The position numbers were made by a program, and so were the translations under genes. The notes beneath the pieces were generated by a model that saw only the letters and a program-made list of their open reading frames with translations, was not told the origin of the DNA and did not search any database. Positions 17,687-23,634 of a DNA stretch of 32,073 bases are shown here, in pieces. Source of the stretch: Anaerolineaceae bacterium (lineage in GTDB: Bacteria; Chloroflexota; Anaerolineae; Anaerolineales; Anaerolineaceae); assembly GCA_002702705.1 (NCBI GenBank), contig PABH01000015.1:1-32073 (forward strand), read 5' to 3'. Positions within the stretch are counted from its first letter, which is position 1; each line of letters begins with the position of its first letter.

Positions 17687-17768
<82 letters not shown>

Positions 17769-17808: not shown

Positions 17809-17857
17809 GGTTGGAGAATAAAATTGGATTAAGTTTTATTAGAATTATATTAAAACC

Positions 17858-17887
17858 TTGACAAATTTAAATCGGTTATGCTAAGAT
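17858..17887 (+). promoter_or_regulatory. Strong sigma-70 promoter of the leader/accessory operon
   Basis: TTGACA (17858-17863), an 18-base spacer and TAAGAT (17882-17887) with an extended -10 TG two bases earlier (17879-17880). Transcription would start near 17894, just before the leader ORFs. Confidence 0.7.
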
Positions 17888-17904
17888 TAGCAGGTAACAA
17901 ATCT

Positions 17905-17931
17905 ATGAAAGGAAAGGCGCATGTTAAATGA
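17905..17931 (+). CDS. Possible 8-codon upstream ORF of the leader
   Basis: ATG at 17905 encodes MKGKAHVK and ends in TGA at 17929-17931, overlapping the next ATG by the ATGA arrangement. An AGG about 10 bases upstream could serve as ribosome site. Very short, so its reality is uncertain; the coupling overlap is the main support. Confidence 0.25.
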   Translation: MKGKAHVK

Positions 17932-18032
17932 ATAACCAAACCATTATCATCACTCAAATTTATGTCAGTAGCGCTGCCGGTTTTTCCGGTGGAGTTAGCG
18001 TTCCTTGTCGTATTGCGCCTGTTCGTCGTTAG
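17928..18032 (+). CDS. Putative 34-residue leader peptide
   Basis: The ATG at 17928-17930 opens a 34-codon ORF starting MNNQTIIITQIYVSSAAG and ending VPCRIAPVRR, with TAG at 18030-18032. It is not recognised as a member of any family. It follows a near-consensus promoter by about 35 bases, has no strong ribosome site of its own (AAGG about 12 bases upstream), and its stop codon is buried in the stem of a hairpin (18024-18051) directly before a terminator. This is the layout of a leader peptide in an attenuator, where ribosome position decides folding. The N-terminal half is rich in Ile, Thr and Val, and the end has Arg-Arg; which codons or ligands would stall it is unknown. Confidence 0.4.
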   Translation: MNNQTIIITQIYVSSAAGFSGGVSVPCRIAPVRR

Positions 18033-18051
18033 CTTAGTTAAGTAAACAACG
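18024..18051 (+). promoter_or_regulatory. Leader hairpin covering the leader stop codon
   Basis: CGTCGTTAGCTTA (18024-18036) and TAAGTAAACAACG (18039-18051) are complementary at 11 of 13 positions (one G-U), with a minimal loop. It begins in the last codons of the leader ORF and touches the terminator stem at 18052, so a ribosome stalled near the leader stop would prevent it from folding. Confidence 0.5.
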
Positions 18052-18086
18052 GCCACGGGTGACAATCGGAACCCGTGGCTTTTTTT
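18052..18086 (+). terminator. First intrinsic terminator of the leader (T1)
   Basis: A perfect 9-bp stem, GCCACGGGT (18052-18060) with ACCCGTGGC (18071-18079), 10-base loop, followed by seven T. It would stop transcription before the downstream genes unless prevented. Confidence 0.85.
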
Positions 18087-18089
18087 ATT

Positions 18090-18112
18090 CTTTATCTGTG
18101 ATCCAGATAAAG
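18090..18112 (+). promoter_or_regulatory. Hairpin between the tandem terminators
   Basis: CTTTATCTG (18090-18098) pairs with CAGATAAAG (18104-18112) across a 5-base loop. Its 3' arm overlaps the start of the second terminator (18109-18112), so the two compete. Confidence 0.5.
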
Positions 18113-18144
18113 CCACGGATTCTAAAAAAATCGGTGGCTTTTTT
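18112..18144 (+). terminator. Second intrinsic terminator of the leader (T2)
   Basis: GCCAC-G-GATT (18112-18121) pairs with AATC-G-GTGGC (18129-18138), one internal mismatch, loop CTAAAAA, followed by six T. Its 5' arm AAAGCCACGG (18109-18118) is perfectly complementary over 10 bases to CCGTGGCTTT (18073-18082) in T1, so an alternative fold abolishes both terminators. Confidence 0.75.
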
Positions 18145-18268
18145 ATTTGCAAAATGTTAAGGGCTGCCACGATGGAAGAAGAAATTAGATAAGAATTGTT
18201 TTTAGGCGTAATGCCTGGTCGGTAAGAAAATAAGTACCTATAGCTGAAAAGCAAATAGGAGGCCTGAA

Positions 18269-18721
18269 ATGTTGAGTAATTTGATGATTAGTGAAGATTC
18301 GCATCGGATTGATTATTTGAATCACAACCTGATGGGATCAGGCCGCGCTTTCGGAGTTTATGTTCGTGGTAAGAAGGCAATAAATCAACCTTATAGCGCT
18401 GAAGTAAAACATCGGTTATATGCCAGTTTGGATTATGTCAATCGCTACTTAAATGAAAAAGAGTTAGCAGCAATATATATTGATATAGCCAATCATCATT
18501 ACAATTATTGTGCTGCTTTTTTCAAACTGGTCAAAGATATCAAGAAAGGTTTATTTAACAAAGTGTTATTCGCTGACCTTGATGAAATAATGAATGAAGA
18601 AGAATTAGCAACGGTTTTATACCAGTTAGCTGATGATAATGAAAATCTGGAAATTATTGACTTAAATGGCAATATTTTTCAGGCTCCAAAAATGCCGATT
18701 AATCACCTTTTAGGCGTGTAA
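18269..18721 (+). CDS. Small serine-recombinase-like domain protein, apparently catalytically inactive
   Basis: 150 residues. The frame AFGVYVRGKKA ... AAIYIDIANHH ... LVKDIKKGLFNKVLFADLDEIMNEEELATVLYQL ... LEIIDLNG follows the order of the resolvase/invertase N-terminal catalytic domain (YxRvS, then a D-rich strand, then the GkfDvvlvydlDRlsR helix). The nucleophilic serine is replaced (R-G-K instead of R-V-S), and the arginine-bearing DRL-R pair reads DLDEIM. No DNA-binding C-terminal domain is present. It may be a repurposed or decaying recombinase, or only a similar fold. AGGAGG sits seven bases before the ATG. It is the first gene after the leader terminators and heads the GNAT cluster. 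Function unknown. Confidence 0.5.
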   Translation: MLSNLMISEDSHRIDYLNHNLMGSGRAFGVYVRGKKAINQPYSAEVKHRLYASLDYVNRYLNEKELAAIYIDIANHHYNYCAAFFKLVKDIKKGLFNKVLFADLDEIMNEEELATVLYQLADDNENLEIIDLNGNIFQAPKMPINHLLGV

Positions 18722-18834: not shown

Positions 18835-19383
18835 ATGGAAAAATCATTATTTGAAACACAAGACTACCAATTAACTGAAATTGACATCGAAAATGATCCA
18901 AAAGTCGATTCAGTTTTAACAAACAACCTAAACTATGCGAGATTATGGAGTCAGGGTTTGATAAAACCACTGTCTGATTTTCAGTTATCCAAAATTTATG
19001 AAAAAATTGAAAAAAAGGTGGACGCCGGGCACGTAATTCATTTTGCTGTGCGTGAGAAAACTGGCGGTCAATTAATAGGTTTTGTTCAATTTAACCAAAT
19101 TTTATGGAATCATGGGGTGGCACGATTAAAGATTGGGGTTGGTGATGAACACCACTTGGAATCAGCGCTCCCACAACTTTTGTCACTTTGCCTGGAATAT
19201 GCTTTTCATGAGCTTAATATGTACCGGCTAGAGATTGATGTGCCAGCCTATGATGTGAACTTATCTCAGGCTGTAACCCAGGCAGGATTTAAAAAAGAAG
19301 TTACCAACCGTGAAGTGATTTATCACCTGGGAAAATATTGGGATGAAATTGGATATGGCATCCTTAAACCGGAATGGCAATAA
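18835..19383 (+). CDS. GNAT-like protein, RimJ/RimL type, without a clear acetyl-CoA loop
   Basis: 182 residues with the outline of the GNAT fold: a strand-helix N-terminal part, LIGFVQFNQILWNHGVARLKIGV (about 80-102), then YAFHELNMYRLEIDVPAYDVNLSQAVTQAGFKKEVTNREVIYHLGKYWDEIGYGILKPEW, which is the typical RimJ/L C-terminal region. The Q/R-x-x-G-x-G/A acetyl-CoA pyrophosphate loop expected after the central strand is replaced by DEHHLESAL, and the conserved Asn-x-x-Ala-i region is altered. It may therefore not acetylate. The ATG has only a weak AGG upstream. It is 16 bases before a conventional GNAT gene. Confidence 0.65.
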   Translation: MEKSLFETQDYQLTEIDIENDPKVDSVLTNNLNYARLWSQGLIKPLSDFQLSKIYEKIEKKVDAGHVIHFAVREKTGGQLIGFVQFNQILWNHGVARLKIGVGDEHHLESALPQLLSLCLEYAFHELNMYRLEIDVPAYDVNLSQAVTQAGFKKEVTNREVIYHLGKYWDEIGYGILKPEWQ

Positions 19384-19399
19384 TTTAAAAGGAAAAACT

Positions 19400-19951
19400 A
19401 TGGATCAGAAGCTTATCCTTCGTGGCGAAAAAGTTCATTTGATACCTTTTGATATCAAAAGAGATGCAGAGAAGTTTGTTAATTGGCGAAGAAATAGTGA
19501 GTATTTGCGATTGATGGATGGCAGCCATGCTGTTCAGTTTTCAAAAGAGAAAATCAAACATTGGTTGGAAGAGGACGCAGAATCTAATACGTTTGTTTTT
19601 TTTATGATCAAAACAAACTCAGAGGAACGGATTATTGGTGAAATAGGTCTATCCGATTTTGATGGAAAATTCGTAAATGCCTTTGTTGGTATTTCCATCG
19701 GTGATCCATCTGATTGGGGTCATGGTTATGGTTCTGAGGCCATGCGGTTGATACTTAATTATGGTTTTTATGTGATGAATTTACACCATATCTCATTAAC
19801 GGTTTTTGAATACAATCCCAGAGCGATCCGTTCTTATGAAAAAGTTGGTTTTAAACATGAGGGGATACAACGTCAGTTTCTTAACCGGGATGGCCGTCGT
19901 TGGGATATGTATCGAATGGGGATTTTACAGACTGAATGGGAAATTAAATAA
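19400..19951 (+). CDS. GNAT family N-acetyltransferase, RimJ/RimL type
   Basis: 183 residues; the ATG at 19400-19402 has an AAAAGGA site upstream and is preferred over the longer frame start at 19343, which overlaps the previous gene. RimJ/L-type signatures: LRGEKVHLIPFD near the start, WGHGYGSEAMRLILNYGFYVMNLHHISLTV (acetyl-CoA loop WGHGYGSEA), then NPRAIRSYEKVGFKHEG and RRWDMYRMGILQTEW. It would transfer an acetyl group from acetyl-CoA to an amine (protein N-terminus, spermidine or a drug); the substrate is not shown by sequence. Second of three GNAT genes in a row. Confidence 0.85.
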   Translation: MDQKLILRGEKVHLIPFDIKRDAEKFVNWRRNSEYLRLMDGSHAVQFSKEKIKHWLEEDAESNTFVFFMIKTNSEERIIGEIGLSDFDGKFVNAFVGISIGDPSDWGHGYGSEAMRLILNYGFYVMNLHHISLTVFEYNPRAIRSYEKVGFKHEGIQRQFLNRDGRRWDMYRMGILQTEWEIK

Positions 19952-19969: not shown

Positions 19970-20980
19970 ATGATAACAACACAGCAGAAAATTAAATTAC
20001 CAAATATCGATGGATTTCAAACAAGATCGTTTGAAATGGAAAAAGATTTACCTTCCTTGGTAAATTTACTCAATGTAGTCGCAGAATCAGAACACACTGA
20101 CGAATATTCCAGTGTAGAGGAAGTACGCAATATTTACCAACATGCGGCCAATTGTGATTTCACAACGGATTTTGTCGTTGTGGAAGTAAAAGATCAGTTG
20201 GTTGGTTTTCAGCGCGTTAGCTGGCGTGAATTACCAATAGATGATCAACTGATTTATGTCATGACTGGTTCAGTTCATCCTGATTGGTATAACCATGGCA
20301 TCGGAACAGCATTAGTCGATTGGGCCGAATCCCGTTTGAAAGAAATAAGCAAAAACCATCCACAAGAAAAAAAGAAATTTTTTCATTCCAATGCATGGAA
20401 ATCAGCAGAACACCGCACCAGGTTTTTGGAGAATAGAGGGTTTGAGCCGGAACGTTATTTTTATATTATGGAGCGAAAAGATTTAAATGGTTTACCTACC
20501 GTAGTGCTGCCTTCCGGCATCGAGTTAAGATCGCCAGCTTCTGAAGTTGATTGGCGAAAAGCAGCTGACTGTTTGGATGAGGCATTTAAAGATCATTGGG
20601 GATATACAGCGAGTACAGAGAATGATTTTCAGCGAATGATTCATAATCCACATGTTAGAATGGATTTAACCCAGTTCGCCTGGAAGGATAATGAGGTGGT
20701 TGGTACTTTAATAGTGTATATTAATGAAGAAACTAACCAAAAAACAAATACAAAACAAGGATGGACAGAAGATATATCCGTTCGTAAACCCTACCGTGGA
20801 CAGGGAATTGCAAAAGCGATGATTTTTGCTGCAATGCGGGCTGTAAAAAATGCAGGCATGGAATCTGCCATGTTGGGTGTTGATACCAATAATCCGAGCG
20901 GTGCGTTATCCATTTATGAAAACTGTGGTTATGAGCCGATTCGAACATCAATCTCATATCGAAAACCATTAATATCTTAA
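19970..20980 (+). CDS. Tandem two-domain GNAT acetyltransferase (mycothiol-synthase-like layout)
   Basis: 336 residues holding two GNAT domains. The first (about 15-165) has VMTGSVHPDWYNHGIGTALVDWAE and RTRFLENRGFEPERYFYIMER; the second (about 175-335) has DISVRKPYRGQGIAKAMIFAAMRAVKNAG and DTNNPSGALSIYENCGYEPIR. Both acetyl-CoA loops (NHGIGTA, GQGIAKA) look usable. The layout resembles mycothiol synthase and related duplicated GNATs, but nothing shows the substrate. AAGG lies before the ATG, 18 bases after the previous stop, so it belongs to the same unit. Confidence 0.85.
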   Translation: MITTQQKIKLPNIDGFQTRSFEMEKDLPSLVNLLNVVAESEHTDEYSSVEEVRNIYQHAANCDFTTDFVVVEVKDQLVGFQRVSWRELPIDDQLIYVMTGSVHPDWYNHGIGTALVDWAESRLKEISKNHPQEKKKFFHSNAWKSAEHRTRFLENRGFEPERYFYIMERKDLNGLPTVVLPSGIELRSPASEVDWRKAADCLDEAFKDHWGYTASTENDFQRMIHNPHVRMDLTQFAWKDNEVVGTLIVYINEETNQKTNTKQGWTEDISVRKPYRGQGIAKAMIFAAMRAVKNAGMESAMLGVDTNNPSGALSIYENCGYEPIRTSISYRKPLIS

Positions 20981-21066: not shown

Positions 21067-21678
21067 GTGGTAAAACCGAACATTAAAGCCATAATTTTTG
21101 ACATGGGGGGAGTTATTTTAAGAACACAGAATCGTGAACCACGTGAGAAATTAGGCCAAAAATTCAATAAGAGTTATGAAGAAATGGATCATCTCATTTA
21201 CGGGATTGATTCCGCACAAAAAGCCACTCGGGGAGAAATTTCTGAAGATGAACATCGGGAAAATGTCTTGAAACAATTTGGTTTATCGATGGAAGATCAG
21301 GATTGGTTTTTTGGAGAATTTTGGCGTGGGGACATAAAGGATCAGGTGCTGGTAAATTATATTTATGAACTCAAAAAGAACTACACTACCGCATTACTTT
21401 CCAATGCATGGAGCAGAGCCCGCGAAGATATTGAACCCAGGTATCAATTTTTAGATGCGTTTGATTTTTCGGTGTTTTCTGCAGAAGTTAATATGGCAAA
21501 GCCCGATTCGCGCATCTACGAATGGGTATTAGAACAAATTAATGTCAAGCCGGAAGAAGCGATTTTTGTGGATGATTTTATTGAAAATATCCACGCAGCC
21601 AATCAGCTGGGTATTCATGGCATCTTGTTCAAATCGACAGACCAGGTTAAGGCTGATATACAAAAGTTGATATCATAA
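21067..21678 (+). CDS. HAD-superfamily hydrolase (subfamily IA)
   Basis: 203 residues with GTG start; AAAGGAG precedes it. HAD motif I KAIIFDMGGVIL (about 7-18; nucleophile Asp), motif II LLSNAWS (Ser/Asn), motif III Lys in NMAKPDSRIYEWVLEQ, and motif IV IFVDDFIENIHAANQLGIHGILF. The DxGGV form of motif I, where the second Asp is replaced by Gly, is common in epoxide-hydrolase-like/YihX HAD proteins; it probably removes a phosphate from a small metabolite. The gene follows the GNAT cluster and ends in a terminator, so it may be the last gene of that unit. Confidence 0.85.
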   Translation: MVKPNIKAIIFDMGGVILRTQNREPREKLGQKFNKSYEEMDHLIYGIDSAQKATRGEISEDEHRENVLKQFGLSMEDQDWFFGEFWRGDIKDQVLVNYIYELKKNYTTALLSNAWSRAREDIEPRYQFLDAFDFSVFSAEVNMAKPDSRIYEWVLEQINVKPEEAIFVDDFIENIHAANQLGIHGILFKSTDQVKADIQKLIS

Positions 21679-21744: not shown

Positions 21745-22989
21745 GTGACATTTAGATTGCAAACCCAAAGCTTTTCAAAAAACGCAAAATATTTTTTAAC
21801 AGCCACTGTTATTAATGGAATCATCTTTAATACTTGGCTTTTATTTTTTAACTTTTTTATCCTGGCCAAAGGATTTGATAAAGAATTTTTGGGATTAATT
21901 AACTCAATTCCATCCATTGCAGGTTTGATATTGGGTATTCCATTGGGCATGCTTTCTGACCGAATCGGAAGAAAAAAAGCAATGTTAATTGGATTGGGTT
22001 TATCTACCGTTGCGATGGGTTTGCAGGTTATTGCACAACAGGGATGGCTCTTAATTGGGATGGCATTTATTGGTGGAGCAGGCAATTCTTTGTATTTTCT
22101 CAGCCAGGCTCCTTTTATGATGAAAGAAACCGATAAAAATAACCGGTCATTAATGTTCTCGTTAAATTTTGGATTAAATACACTGGCTGGTTTTGTTGGT
22201 AATTTATTTGCAGGCCAAATGCCAGCCTGGTTTGGAAAGTTTTTGAAGGTTCCTGCAGATAGCGTTACAGCCTATCAAGCGGTTTTATTGGTAGCAGTCT
22301 TCTTTGGATTATTTGCCTTGATCCCCATACTTTTAATTAATGTTAAAAAAAGTTCCGTCGTGATGGTTGATTCACCAAAAATTAATCAATGGCGGGTATT
22401 AAAATCTGCTGTAGGGAAACCATTAACCTGGAAATTGATTTTACCGGAATTGTTGTTAGGCTTTGGTGCTGCGATTACCATTCCGTATATGAACTTATAT
22501 TTTTCAGACCATTTTTTGATTTCAAGCCAGCGTTTGGGGGTGTTATTTAGTCTTAGCTCCTTGGTCGTAGGGATAGGATCAATTATCGGACCGAGGTTGG
22601 TGAAGCGATATAAAAGTAAAATTAAAGTCGTTGTATTAACTCAATCCTCCAGCCTGGTATTTTTATTAATCCTTGCATTTTCTCCATTTTACTGGCTTGC
22701 TGCCATAGGGTTTTTACTGCGTGGAATGTTAATGAATATGGCTGTTCCTTTATATAATGCGTTTTGTATGGAAAATATTCCCGAACATGAGCAGGGGGTC
22801 GTTAACAGTTTGATTAGTAACGCATGGACGACTGGCTGGGCGGTTGGGCCATTTCTTTCCGGATTAATTCAGATACGTTTTGGTTTTTTACCTTTATTCC
22901 TTACGACGGCTGTGATATATTTGTTTTCGATAACAGTTACCTGGTTGTTCTTTGGAAAATTTGAACAAGTTCAGGCCCTAATGGAGTAA
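21745..22989 (+). CDS. MFS transporter
   Basis: 414 residues with about 12 hydrophobic helices. The intracellular loop motif SDRIGRKKAMLIG (about 71-83) is the MFS D-R-x-G-R-K/R signature; the second half has a similar loop region GPRLVKRYKSK. MTDKNNRS-type MMKETDKNNRSLMFSLNFGLNTLAGFVGN is typical of drug/sugar efflux-like MFS proteins. The likely start is the GTG at 21745, shortly after the terminator; the upstream ribosome site is weak, so the start is unsure. The stop overlaps the ribosome site for the phosphodiesterase gene. Substrate unknown; a drug/metabolite exporter is the usual default. Confidence 0.85.
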   Translation: MTFRLQTQSFSKNAKYFLTATVINGIIFNTWLLFFNFFILAKGFDKEFLGLINSIPSIAGLILGIPLGMLSDRIGRKKAMLIGLGLSTVAMGLQVIAQQGWLLIGMAFIGGAGNSLYFLSQAPFMMKETDKNNRSLMFSLNFGLNTLAGFVGNLFAGQMPAWFGKFLKVPADSVTAYQAVLLVAVFFGLFALIPILLINVKKSSVVMVDSPKINQWRVLKSAVGKPLTWKLILPELLLGFGAAITIPYMNLYFSDHFLISSQRLGVLFSLSSLVVGIGSIIGPRLVKRYKSKIKVVVLTQSSSLVFLLILAFSPFYWLAAIGFLLRGMLMNMAVPLYNAFCMENIPEHEQGVVNSLISNAWTTGWAVGPFLSGLIQIRFGFLPLFLTTAVIYLFSITVTWLFFGKFEQVQALME

Positions 22990-22992
22990 AGA

Positions 22993-23634
22993 TTGGTTTT
23001 TCAAAATGATTCAAAAAAGACAATCAGATTAGGGGTTATCAGTGATACACATGTGCCGGATCGTGTAGGCGAATTACATCCGGATGTACTGCGAATTTTT
23101 GTTGAAAATCATGTTGATCAGATTGTTCATGCGGGGGATGCCAGTTCTATGCAAGTAATAAGATCATTAGAATCAGTCGCACCAGTGATTCATGTGTCCG
23201 GAAATCGTGACTTTTTGATGAGGAAGGAAAATCAACTCGTTTTATATCTAACAATTAATGGTGTGAAGTTTGGGGTAACTCATGGTCATGGTGGTTTTTT
23301 ACCTTATTTTTTAGATAAATTTCCTTATATGTTAGAAGGTTACAAATTCGAAAGATATCAAAAAAAATTGGATAAAATTGTTGGCGATGTGAACGTTGTT
23401 ATTTTTGGTCACACACACACTTCAGAAAACCGGTGGGTCAATGGCAGACTTTTTTTTAACAGCGGTTCTGCATACGACCGGGGAAAAGATCGCCGCGGTC
23501 CATCAGTGGGCTTGATCACTGTAGATCCGCAGGGACAGGTTAAATCATCCATTATTTCGTTAGAATTTATGAAATGGGGTAATGGAAAATGGGAAAAACA
23601 AACTAAATCACCATTTAAGCGATTTAAATCTTGA
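22993..23634 (+). CDS. YfcE/MJ0936-type calcineurin-like metallophosphoesterase
   Basis: 213 residues. Metal-binding motifs in order: LGVISDTHVPD (about 13-23), VHAGDAS (44-50), VSGNRD, THGHGG and FGHTHTSENR, all intact. YfcE-type enzymes are phosphodiesterases that need Mn or a similar metal; the true substrate is often unknown. The start is a TTG with GGAG six bases upstream inside the end of the MFS gene, and the two genes are separated by three bases, so they are translated together. The stop codon overlaps the -35 box of the rpoB promoter. Confidence 0.88.
   Translation: MVFQNDSKKTIRLGVISDTHVPDRVGELHPDVLRIFVENHVDQIVHAGDASSMQVIRSLESVAPVIHVSGNRDFLMRKENQLVLYLTINGVKFGVTHGHGGFLPYFLDKFPYMLEGYKFERYQKKLDKIVGDVNVVIFGHTHTSENRWVNGRLFFNSGSAYDRGKDRRGPSVGLITVDPQGQVKSSIISLEFMKWGNGKWEKQTKSPFKRFKS

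Follow-up and report, generated by a model that had tools for sequence, protein, structure and literature searches.

In Bacillus subtilis, read-through into the ABC exporter encoded by bmrCD depends on translation of the bmrB leader and on ribosome inhibition, as described in the accessible part of the report (PMC4191407). The accessible parts of two further reports concern regulated ribosome-protection genes, namely the leader-controlled ABC-F gene msrD and the ribosome-splitting hflXr (PMC10314930, PMC6310831). The catalytic domains of serine integrases and resolvases (PF00239) are a further point of reference for the locus presented here. In the titles and abstract openings of open-licence PMC literature on attenuators, arrest peptides or leader peptides in Chloroflexota/Anaerolineae, the leader of this locus is not described; likewise, those on inactive, domesticated or pseudoenzyme serine recombinases contain no protein such as the one encoded behind it. 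The accessible text of an arrest-peptide paper (PMC12992588) holds no 'RSAP', and that of a review of domesticated mobile elements (PMC8987985) holds no inactive serine recombinase. We propose, with a probability of roughly 0.72, that a stand-alone recombinase catalytic domain whose chemistry has been lost is retained in one family, where its gene opens a resistance-type operon preceded by an attenuator.

The window, by which we mean the whole stretch of 32,073 nucleotides that was analysed, comes from an Anaerolineaceae bacterium. The ORF under study lies where it had been placed, with its ATG at 18269 and its stop at 18719-18721 on the forward strand (150 aa), and it has a good ribosome-binding site (GGAGG, 18258-18262). 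The features of the locus are listed below.

17858..17887, + strand: promoter-like hexamers TTGACA - 18 - TAAGAT, with TG before the second (consensus scan, 10/12 matches)
17916..17921, + strand: GGCGCA in the ribosome-binding region of the leader, which can pair with TGCGCC at 18014-18019 (in the minimum-energy fold)
17928..18032, + strand: leader ORF MNNQTIIITQIYVSSAAGFSGGVSVPCRIAPVRR, then a stop (counterpart upstream of 38/38 homologues; conserved segment in frame in 38/38)
18003..18020, + strand: conserved segment CCT TGT CGT ATT GCG CCT of the leader/RNA element (codon tables, 38 loci; alignments A3 and A6)
18052..18086, + strand: terminator-like hairpin 1, GCCACGGG...CCCGTGGC + T7 (-20.2 kcal/mol, z -6.2; covariation, 37 leaders)
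18110..18146, + strand: terminator-like hairpin 2 (-13.6 kcal/mol, z -4.7)
18269..18721, + strand: pseudo-serine-recombinase, 150 aa, with the resolvase-like domain at residues ~26-131
18835..19383, + strand: GNAT acetyltransferase (Pfam Acetyltransf_4 and _3 above cut-off)
19343..19951, + strand: GNAT acetyltransferase (Acetyltransf_3, E 2.7e-20)
19970..20980, + strand: GNAT protein of 336 aa with two matched stretches (Acetyltransf_1, E 1.3e-20)
21067..21678, + strand: HAD-family hydrolase (PF00702, E 3.4e-15)
21745..22989, + strand: MFS transporter (MFS_1, E 7.9e-55)
22993..23634, + strand: YfcE-type metallophosphoesterase (Metallophos_2, E 1.3e-26; TIGR00040 above cut-off)

A TTGACA hexamer is also visible upstream of the leaders of the same genus. 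Some additional elements surround the leader. A four-codon ORF (ATG TTA AAT GAA TAA, 17921-17935) starts just before the leader start and overlaps it, and it is possibly a second start signal. Upstream of the operon, a tRNA gene (RF00005, 54 bits) lies at positions 17687-17768 of the window on the - strand. An antisense ORF of 134 aa (17850-18254, - strand) runs across the leader region and probably arises as a side effect of leader conservation.

The gene had been predicted to head an attenuator-controlled operon. The leader ORF and the hairpins of the window are real and attenuator-like, and a leader ORF with a hairpin stands upstream in 38 of 38 loci; attenuation itself we infer. A short leader ORF precedes every homologue (a pattern located 35 of them, the other 3 were identified by hand, and five start codons were hand-adjusted). 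Near its end, the conserved segment reads P-[SC]-R-x-A-P in most loci and is in frame in all 38. The third amino acid of the segment is Arg in 31 of them, and since this Arg is retained through several codons, selection on the leader peptide is possible. A peptide-only reading, in which the leader encodes an arrest peptide, is weakened by two observations. In five of the six conserved codons the third position is nearly constant whereas second positions vary, and the ABC-F loci described below read the segment in another frame (...SECAC, then a stop), with weak ribosome-binding sites there.

A hairpin follows the leader ORF in all 38 loci. Over 37 homologous leaders, 98.2% of the cells of hairpin 1 are paired and four of its nine pairs are changed on both sides; the double-changed cells number 18 versus 5.3 in shuffles, a control that ignores relatedness. 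A simple terminator scanner, which accepts only loops of 3-8, found no terminator in the window leader, and the entire window leader folds no better than shuffles (z -0.79). In an Rfam E-value search of the window stretch, only the tRNA scored above its gathering score, and all other matches were at chance level (for the trpB motif, 29.7 bits versus 59). No family reached its gathering score in 11 further leader loci.

The pairings of the leader were compared across loci. For the ribosome-binding region of the leader and its TGCGCC partner, own partners beat permuted ones in 2000 of 2000 permutations over 38 loci, in a test that ignores relatedness. The leader segment before the TGC shows six-base complementarity to the terminator loop in 44 of 93 loci, against a mean of 20.8 and a maximum of 30 in 1000 permutations that also ignore relatedness; these 93 loci were taken from 97, three being without an anchor and one (L216) being left out. 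Several variants of the segment change together with their own loops, namely GGAG (33/45 versus 3/48 in the others), GCAG (4/7 versus 2/86) and GTAA (2/5 versus 0/88). GTAG, the second commonest variant (2/15), and GTAT, which is the type of the window (1/9), show no such coupling. The complementarity between leader and loop in the window is short (ATTG with CAAT) and fails the six-base test, as it does in eight of the nine loci of this variant.

We read the leader as a putative ribosome-mediated transcription attenuator, and the RNA switch of the operon probably senses blocked ribosomes. In the mechanism that we propose, the ribosome-binding region of the leader would pair with TGCGCC at the leader end. 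A translation inhibitor that slows the ribosome on the leader would free the leader end to pair with the terminator loop. Once the loop was engaged, transcription would read through, and the pseudo-recombinase would be the first protein made.

In all 38 loci, the pseudo-recombinase gene directly follows the leader. The next gene on the same strand (ORFs of at least 80 aa; in L043, one opposite-strand ORF was passed over) encodes a GNAT acetyltransferase in 25 loci, an ABC ATPase in six, a HAD hydrolase in three, an MFS transporter in one and another protein in one, while the contig ends there in two. The ORF lists came from a simple script (at least 80 aa, longest first), in which an opposite-strand ORF displaced the gene in L048 and L056. 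The two ABC ATPases that were tested are closest to DrrA, below the cut-off of that family. Downstream, in stretches of which several are cut short, HAD genes occur in 31 of the 38 loci, YfcE-type phosphoesterase genes in 33, and a gene that we take to be RpoB in 27. The pseudo-recombinase is the constant element of these operons, and the effectors vary (GNATs, a drug-type ABC exporter, MFS, HAD).

The leader reaches much further than the gene. A covariance model (R1) built from 37 of the 38 leaders found the RNA in 90 of 147 family genomes and in 130 of 396 class genomes (88 of 223 genera). In a sample of 400 phylum genomes it was found in 34, of which 33 belong to the class and one lies outside at 4.8e-5. 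Of the 90 family genomes with a leader, 52 gave no match to the gene in a single-sequence search, in which some genomes were incomplete, so the attenuator seems able to do without the pseudo-recombinase. Because the leader occurs without the gene in many genomes, the pseudo-recombinase can be considered accessory. The leader would be the older part and the gene an insertion in one lineage; loss elsewhere is possible.

The leader ORF is in the same frame in 35 of 40 class loci (L186-L225), which are among the best-scoring matches rather than random ones and several of which are cut by contig ends. In 35 of the 40, at least one ABC exporter, ABC-F, GNAT, HAD or MFS gene lies on the leader strand within the sequence examined, which spans up to 6 kb. 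Across the class, leaders head tandem ABC exporter genes (half-molecules), DrrA-like exporters (below the family cut-off) and GNAT arrays. Five ABC-F proteins are encoded downstream of leaders, in four cases by the first gene, and all five exceed the NF000355 cut-off. The window genome carries a second leader copy (G000:C69:20331-20414, L138) ahead of a 664-aa ribosomal-protection-like ABC-F gene, and the conserved RNA segment is read there in another frame (...SLSECAC, then a stop). Since the four ABC-F-first loci read the conserved segment in another frame, the RNA sequence itself appears to be under selection. An RtcB-family RNA ligase gene (Pfam; L189:2377-3798, - strand) was found after one leader, and a possibly similar ORF begins in L201; RNA repair may be part of some leader-headed operons.

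An explanation that competes with a response to inhibitors is that the leader senses amino-acid supply or the general translation rate, and that the operon is metabolic or protein-modifying and takes no part in an antibiotic response. It is in keeping with this that GNATs, HAD hydrolases and YfcE are not specific resistance genes, that none of the three window GNATs scores above an NCBIfam cut-off, and that the presumed RpoB gene lies downstream in so many loci. We consider this explanation unlikely, because the same leader stands ahead of the ribosome-protection-like ABC-F proteins, the tandem exporter half-molecules and the DrrA-like exporters described above, and because inspection by eye found no single-amino-acid run common to the leader peptides. 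A switch that responds to blocked ribosomes remains the preferred reading of the leader.

The distribution of the protein itself is narrower. Relatives were found in 38 of 147 family genomes (protein search, E <= 0.01), which represent 13 of 40 genera. Nearly all of them have a single locus; the two matches in G141 belong to one gene that is broken, and a further, partial match occurs in G052. Among 396 class genomes, two were found to contain the protein, both in the family of the window, of which this sample includes few members, and no other family had it within the 400-genome order sample. Searches with the window protein found no relatives in 72,556 plasmids or 50,697 phage records, and none were found in viral contigs with alignment A2 as the query. 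In G141, which belongs to the genus of the window (L040, G141:C14:308437-308827), the gene is interrupted and the leader is intact; an assembly error is possible.

The original prediction held that the gene has been kept rather than left to decay in place, and the selection test that it called for agrees. Alignment A1 includes 35 of the 38 homologues; the three left out are a broken copy, a partial one and one truncated at a contig end. Six of its columns are invariant, at identities down to 22%. In 20 pairs, dN/dS ranges from 0.00 to 0.41, with 14 values between 0.07 and 0.2, which indicates purifying selection (Nei-Gojobori; the pairs are not independent and several dS values are saturated). 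For the HAD and phosphoesterase genes of this operon, the ratio is 0.05-0.23 wherever dS is computable, so the pseudo-recombinase is under similar, and in some pairs weaker, constraint than its neighbours. For the pair L035/L036, the value is 0.33 for the pseudo-recombinase versus 0.14 for HAD. The distances between the proteins were also compared with those between the presumed RpoB proteins of the same contigs (Spearman 0.525, reached in 0 of 999 permutations), for the only 27 loci with a usable RpoB. The pseudo-recombinase tree broadly follows RpoB, with conflicts in places (genus g4, L063). It is very improbable that the gene is a decaying, functionless relic of the integrase that brought the operon in. 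The loss of the catalytic residues and C-terminal domains and the broken copy in G141 would suit such a history, but the low dN/dS values, the invariant columns at such divergence and the same place in 13 genera have largely refuted it. The gene is a retained pseudo-recombinase and not a relic.

The order of motifs in the protein had been likened to that of the resolvase catalytic domain. The HMM search proposed as a check gave a mixed result. PF00239 matched three of the 35 family members (best E 8.9e-4, for single sequences and near noise), but a search to E 10 did not list it for the window protein, which no Pfam family matched above its cut-off. Consequently, a plain HMM search alone leaves the question open. 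Structure prediction followed by a fold search, which had also been proposed, gave the fold of a serine-recombinase catalytic domain. AlphaFold2 models were obtained for the window protein (alignment of 12; pLDDT 84.4, pTM 0.81) and for a second family member (pLDDT 82.9, pTM 0.82). In Foldseek, serine recombinases came first for both, with a best E of 1.2e-3 and other folds from rank 7 for the window model, and a best E of 5.1e-3 and other folds from rank 4 for the second; these E-values are weak, none being <=1e-3 for either model. Realignment of the Foldseek matches with VIA-align placed serine recombinases at ranks 1-17 for the window model (Z 11.4-7.3; next row Z 6.9) and at ranks 1-16 for the second member (Z 11.7-8.2; next row 6.4). 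Serine-recombinase titles are carried by 15 of those 17 rows, and the other two, 3ilx and 3lhk, we take to be serine recombinases as well.

Comparison of profiles confirmed the motif order. The profile of the 35 members aligned to 24 recombinase domains of related genomes with an E of 5.3e-8 and a probability of 94.8% (hhalign), versus 0.0068 at best for 17 decoy families and 0.12 for the reversed recombinase alignment. Against all PDB sequences (up to E 10), the family profile gave two matches, both serine recombinases, with E of 0.043 and 0.35, neither significant alone. In a profile search of 400 genomes of the order, strong matches occurred in 31 genomes, all of one family, followed by nine weak rows (E 8e-7 to 1e-3). 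All five of the weak rows that were inspected have YxRVS and DR[L/F]xR. The four of these that were scanned contain PF00239 together with PF07508 and are thus large serine recombinases. The 18269-18721 protein shares its fold and ancestry with the serine-recombinase catalytic domain, and the ancestor was probably a large serine recombinase. Before the recombinase-like domain, the family has an additional conserved strand at the N-terminus (residues 12-16, RxxY), with Arg13 and Tyr16 each present in 32 of 35 members.

The resemblance could in principle be convergent, the protein being a non-homologous Rossmann-like domain such as SLOG or the N-terminal domain of HflX. SLOG (PF10686) is matched by one of the 35 members at E 6.4e-4, slightly better than the best PF00239 match, and the first non-recombinase VIA-align row of the window model is an HflXr chain (rank 18, Z 6.9; rank 20, Z 6.1 for the second member). 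No SLOG-titled entries appear in the fold-search lists printed. The HflX N-terminal domain was rejected as a true relative because the family profile gave an E of 0.41 against 19 such domains from related genomes, versus the far stronger value for recombinases; SLOG was compared by single-sequence match only. With recombinases also filling the top VIA-align ranks of both models, convergence is highly unlikely.

The residue names R8, S10, R68, R71, D36 and R45 used here follow gamma-delta resolvase numbering. In the profile alignment, the nucleophile position (S10) is occupied by Lys35 in the window protein and by Ser in five of the 35 members. The active-site arginine R8 is present in 16 members, R68 in one and R71 in none; the window protein retains only the R8 equivalent, Arg33. 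The 24 true recombinase domains have Ser (23) or Thr (1) as the nucleophile and R[L/F/I]xR in every case. Homologues that keep both the Ser and the arginines were looked for, and the full catalytic set occurs in 0 of 35. The Ser had been reported as replaced by Gly in YVRGK. The loss of the Ser stands and the position does not, as Lys35 aligns with the nucleophile and Gly34 with the residue preceding it. The arginine region, DLDEIMNEE, had been read correctly, and Glu106 and Asn109 occupy the positions of two recombinase arginines. Judged from the alignment, the catalytic residues (nucleophile and RLxR arginines) are lost across the family. Other positions are kept. Tyr31 and Asp72 (D36) are found in all 35 members, and Arg at position 81 (R45) in 26, with Cys in the window protein. 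Position 47, which is Gln in recombinases, is Lys in 32 members and Arg in three.

The ORF ends 19 residues past the last listed strand (128-131). As the model has only a low-confidence tail after that strand, the protein lacks the dimer helix and the DNA-binding domain. The statement that no DNA-binding domain follows was thus right, and the next ORF encodes a GNAT acetyltransferase. The window genome has three PF00239 proteins. One of them (G000:C21:69884-70264, L003) reads YARVT, with Thr at the nucleophile and RLxR kept, and the other two keep Ser. It is scarcely credible that the protein is a nuclease or recombinase that remains active because its catalytic residues have moved (to Tyr31, Tyr42, Lys47, Asp72 and Asp90). 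In favour of this, conserved polar residues lie, by sequence, on or adjoining the old active-site strands and helix; against it, the RLxR arginines are lost, the model shows neither a DNA-binding domain nor a long helix after the domain, and no such case was found in the titles and abstract openings of open-licence PMC literature on inactive or domesticated serine recombinases.

The best reading of the locus is that of a non-catalytic module that would be made under ribosome inhibition, with induction by antibiotics and a partner of the protein as presumed parts of this reading. The most economical view of the protein, and the least certain part of the whole, is that it may act by binding and not by catalysis, as an adaptor or regulator. 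A role in binding is suggested by the fact that the protein stays while the effectors change. It is also suggested by the former active-site region, which has been remodelled and not eroded (the invariant Tyr31 and Asp72, Lys/Arg at position 47, and Arg at position 81 in most members). A more specific version is tentative and rather doubtful. In it, the recombinase domain may have become a sensor, adaptor or RNA-binding protein that serves the blocked-ribosome response without catalysis. It would be the first product once the attenuator, which is class-wide and undescribed, opens, and it would act on the ribosome, the leader RNA or the effectors.

A pseudo-serine-recombinase that has long been retained downstream of a switch that probably senses ribosomes would exemplify a mobile-element enzyme put to new use purely through binding. 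The leader is of value in its own right, since one conserved RNA/ORF element heads resistance-type operons across the class. It marks candidate drug-response genes and can provide a handle on which inhibitors these bacteria meet. The leader RNA may deserve a description of its own, as it is class-wide and, in the loci searched, matched no Rfam family at its gathering score. Both the pseudo-recombinase and the leader claims are directly testable.

Among the known systems, the serine integrases and resolvases of PF00239 (TP901-1 integrase 3bvp, the resolvase-family 3guv, phiC31 integrase 9rah) resemble the window protein and the second modelled member in fold and topology (Z 10.0-11.7). Their catalytic domains also share with the family the motif order, the D36 equivalent (35/35) and the R45 equivalent (26/35). 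Unlike these recombinases, the family has lost the catalytic Ser and the RLxR arginines, carries Lys/Arg in place of the first-helix Gln, and has an extra N-terminal strand and no dimer helix or DNA-binding domain. Moreover, its members are encoded in operons, and searches of plasmids, phages and viral contigs found no relative. The leader-controlled msrD and the ribosome-splitting hflXr, as presented in the accessible parts of the reports (PMC10314930, PMC6310831), are comparable as regulated ribosome-protection genes, and here the second leader copy precedes an ABC-F gene. Hosts and leaders differ, the leaders having been compared without alignment, and in contrast to hflXr, the pseudo-recombinase has no profile similarity to the HflX domains of related genomes. 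The bmrB-bmrCD system, as far as the accessible part of the report goes (PMC4191407), has a short translated leader, a terminator and alternative stems before a multidrug ABC exporter, and in the loci studied here tandem ABC exporter genes follow many leaders. No similarity between the leaders was seen in a comparison without alignment. Unlike bmrB-bmrCD, one conserved leader RNA is common here to ABC exporter, GNAT, ABC-F and pseudo-recombinase operons.
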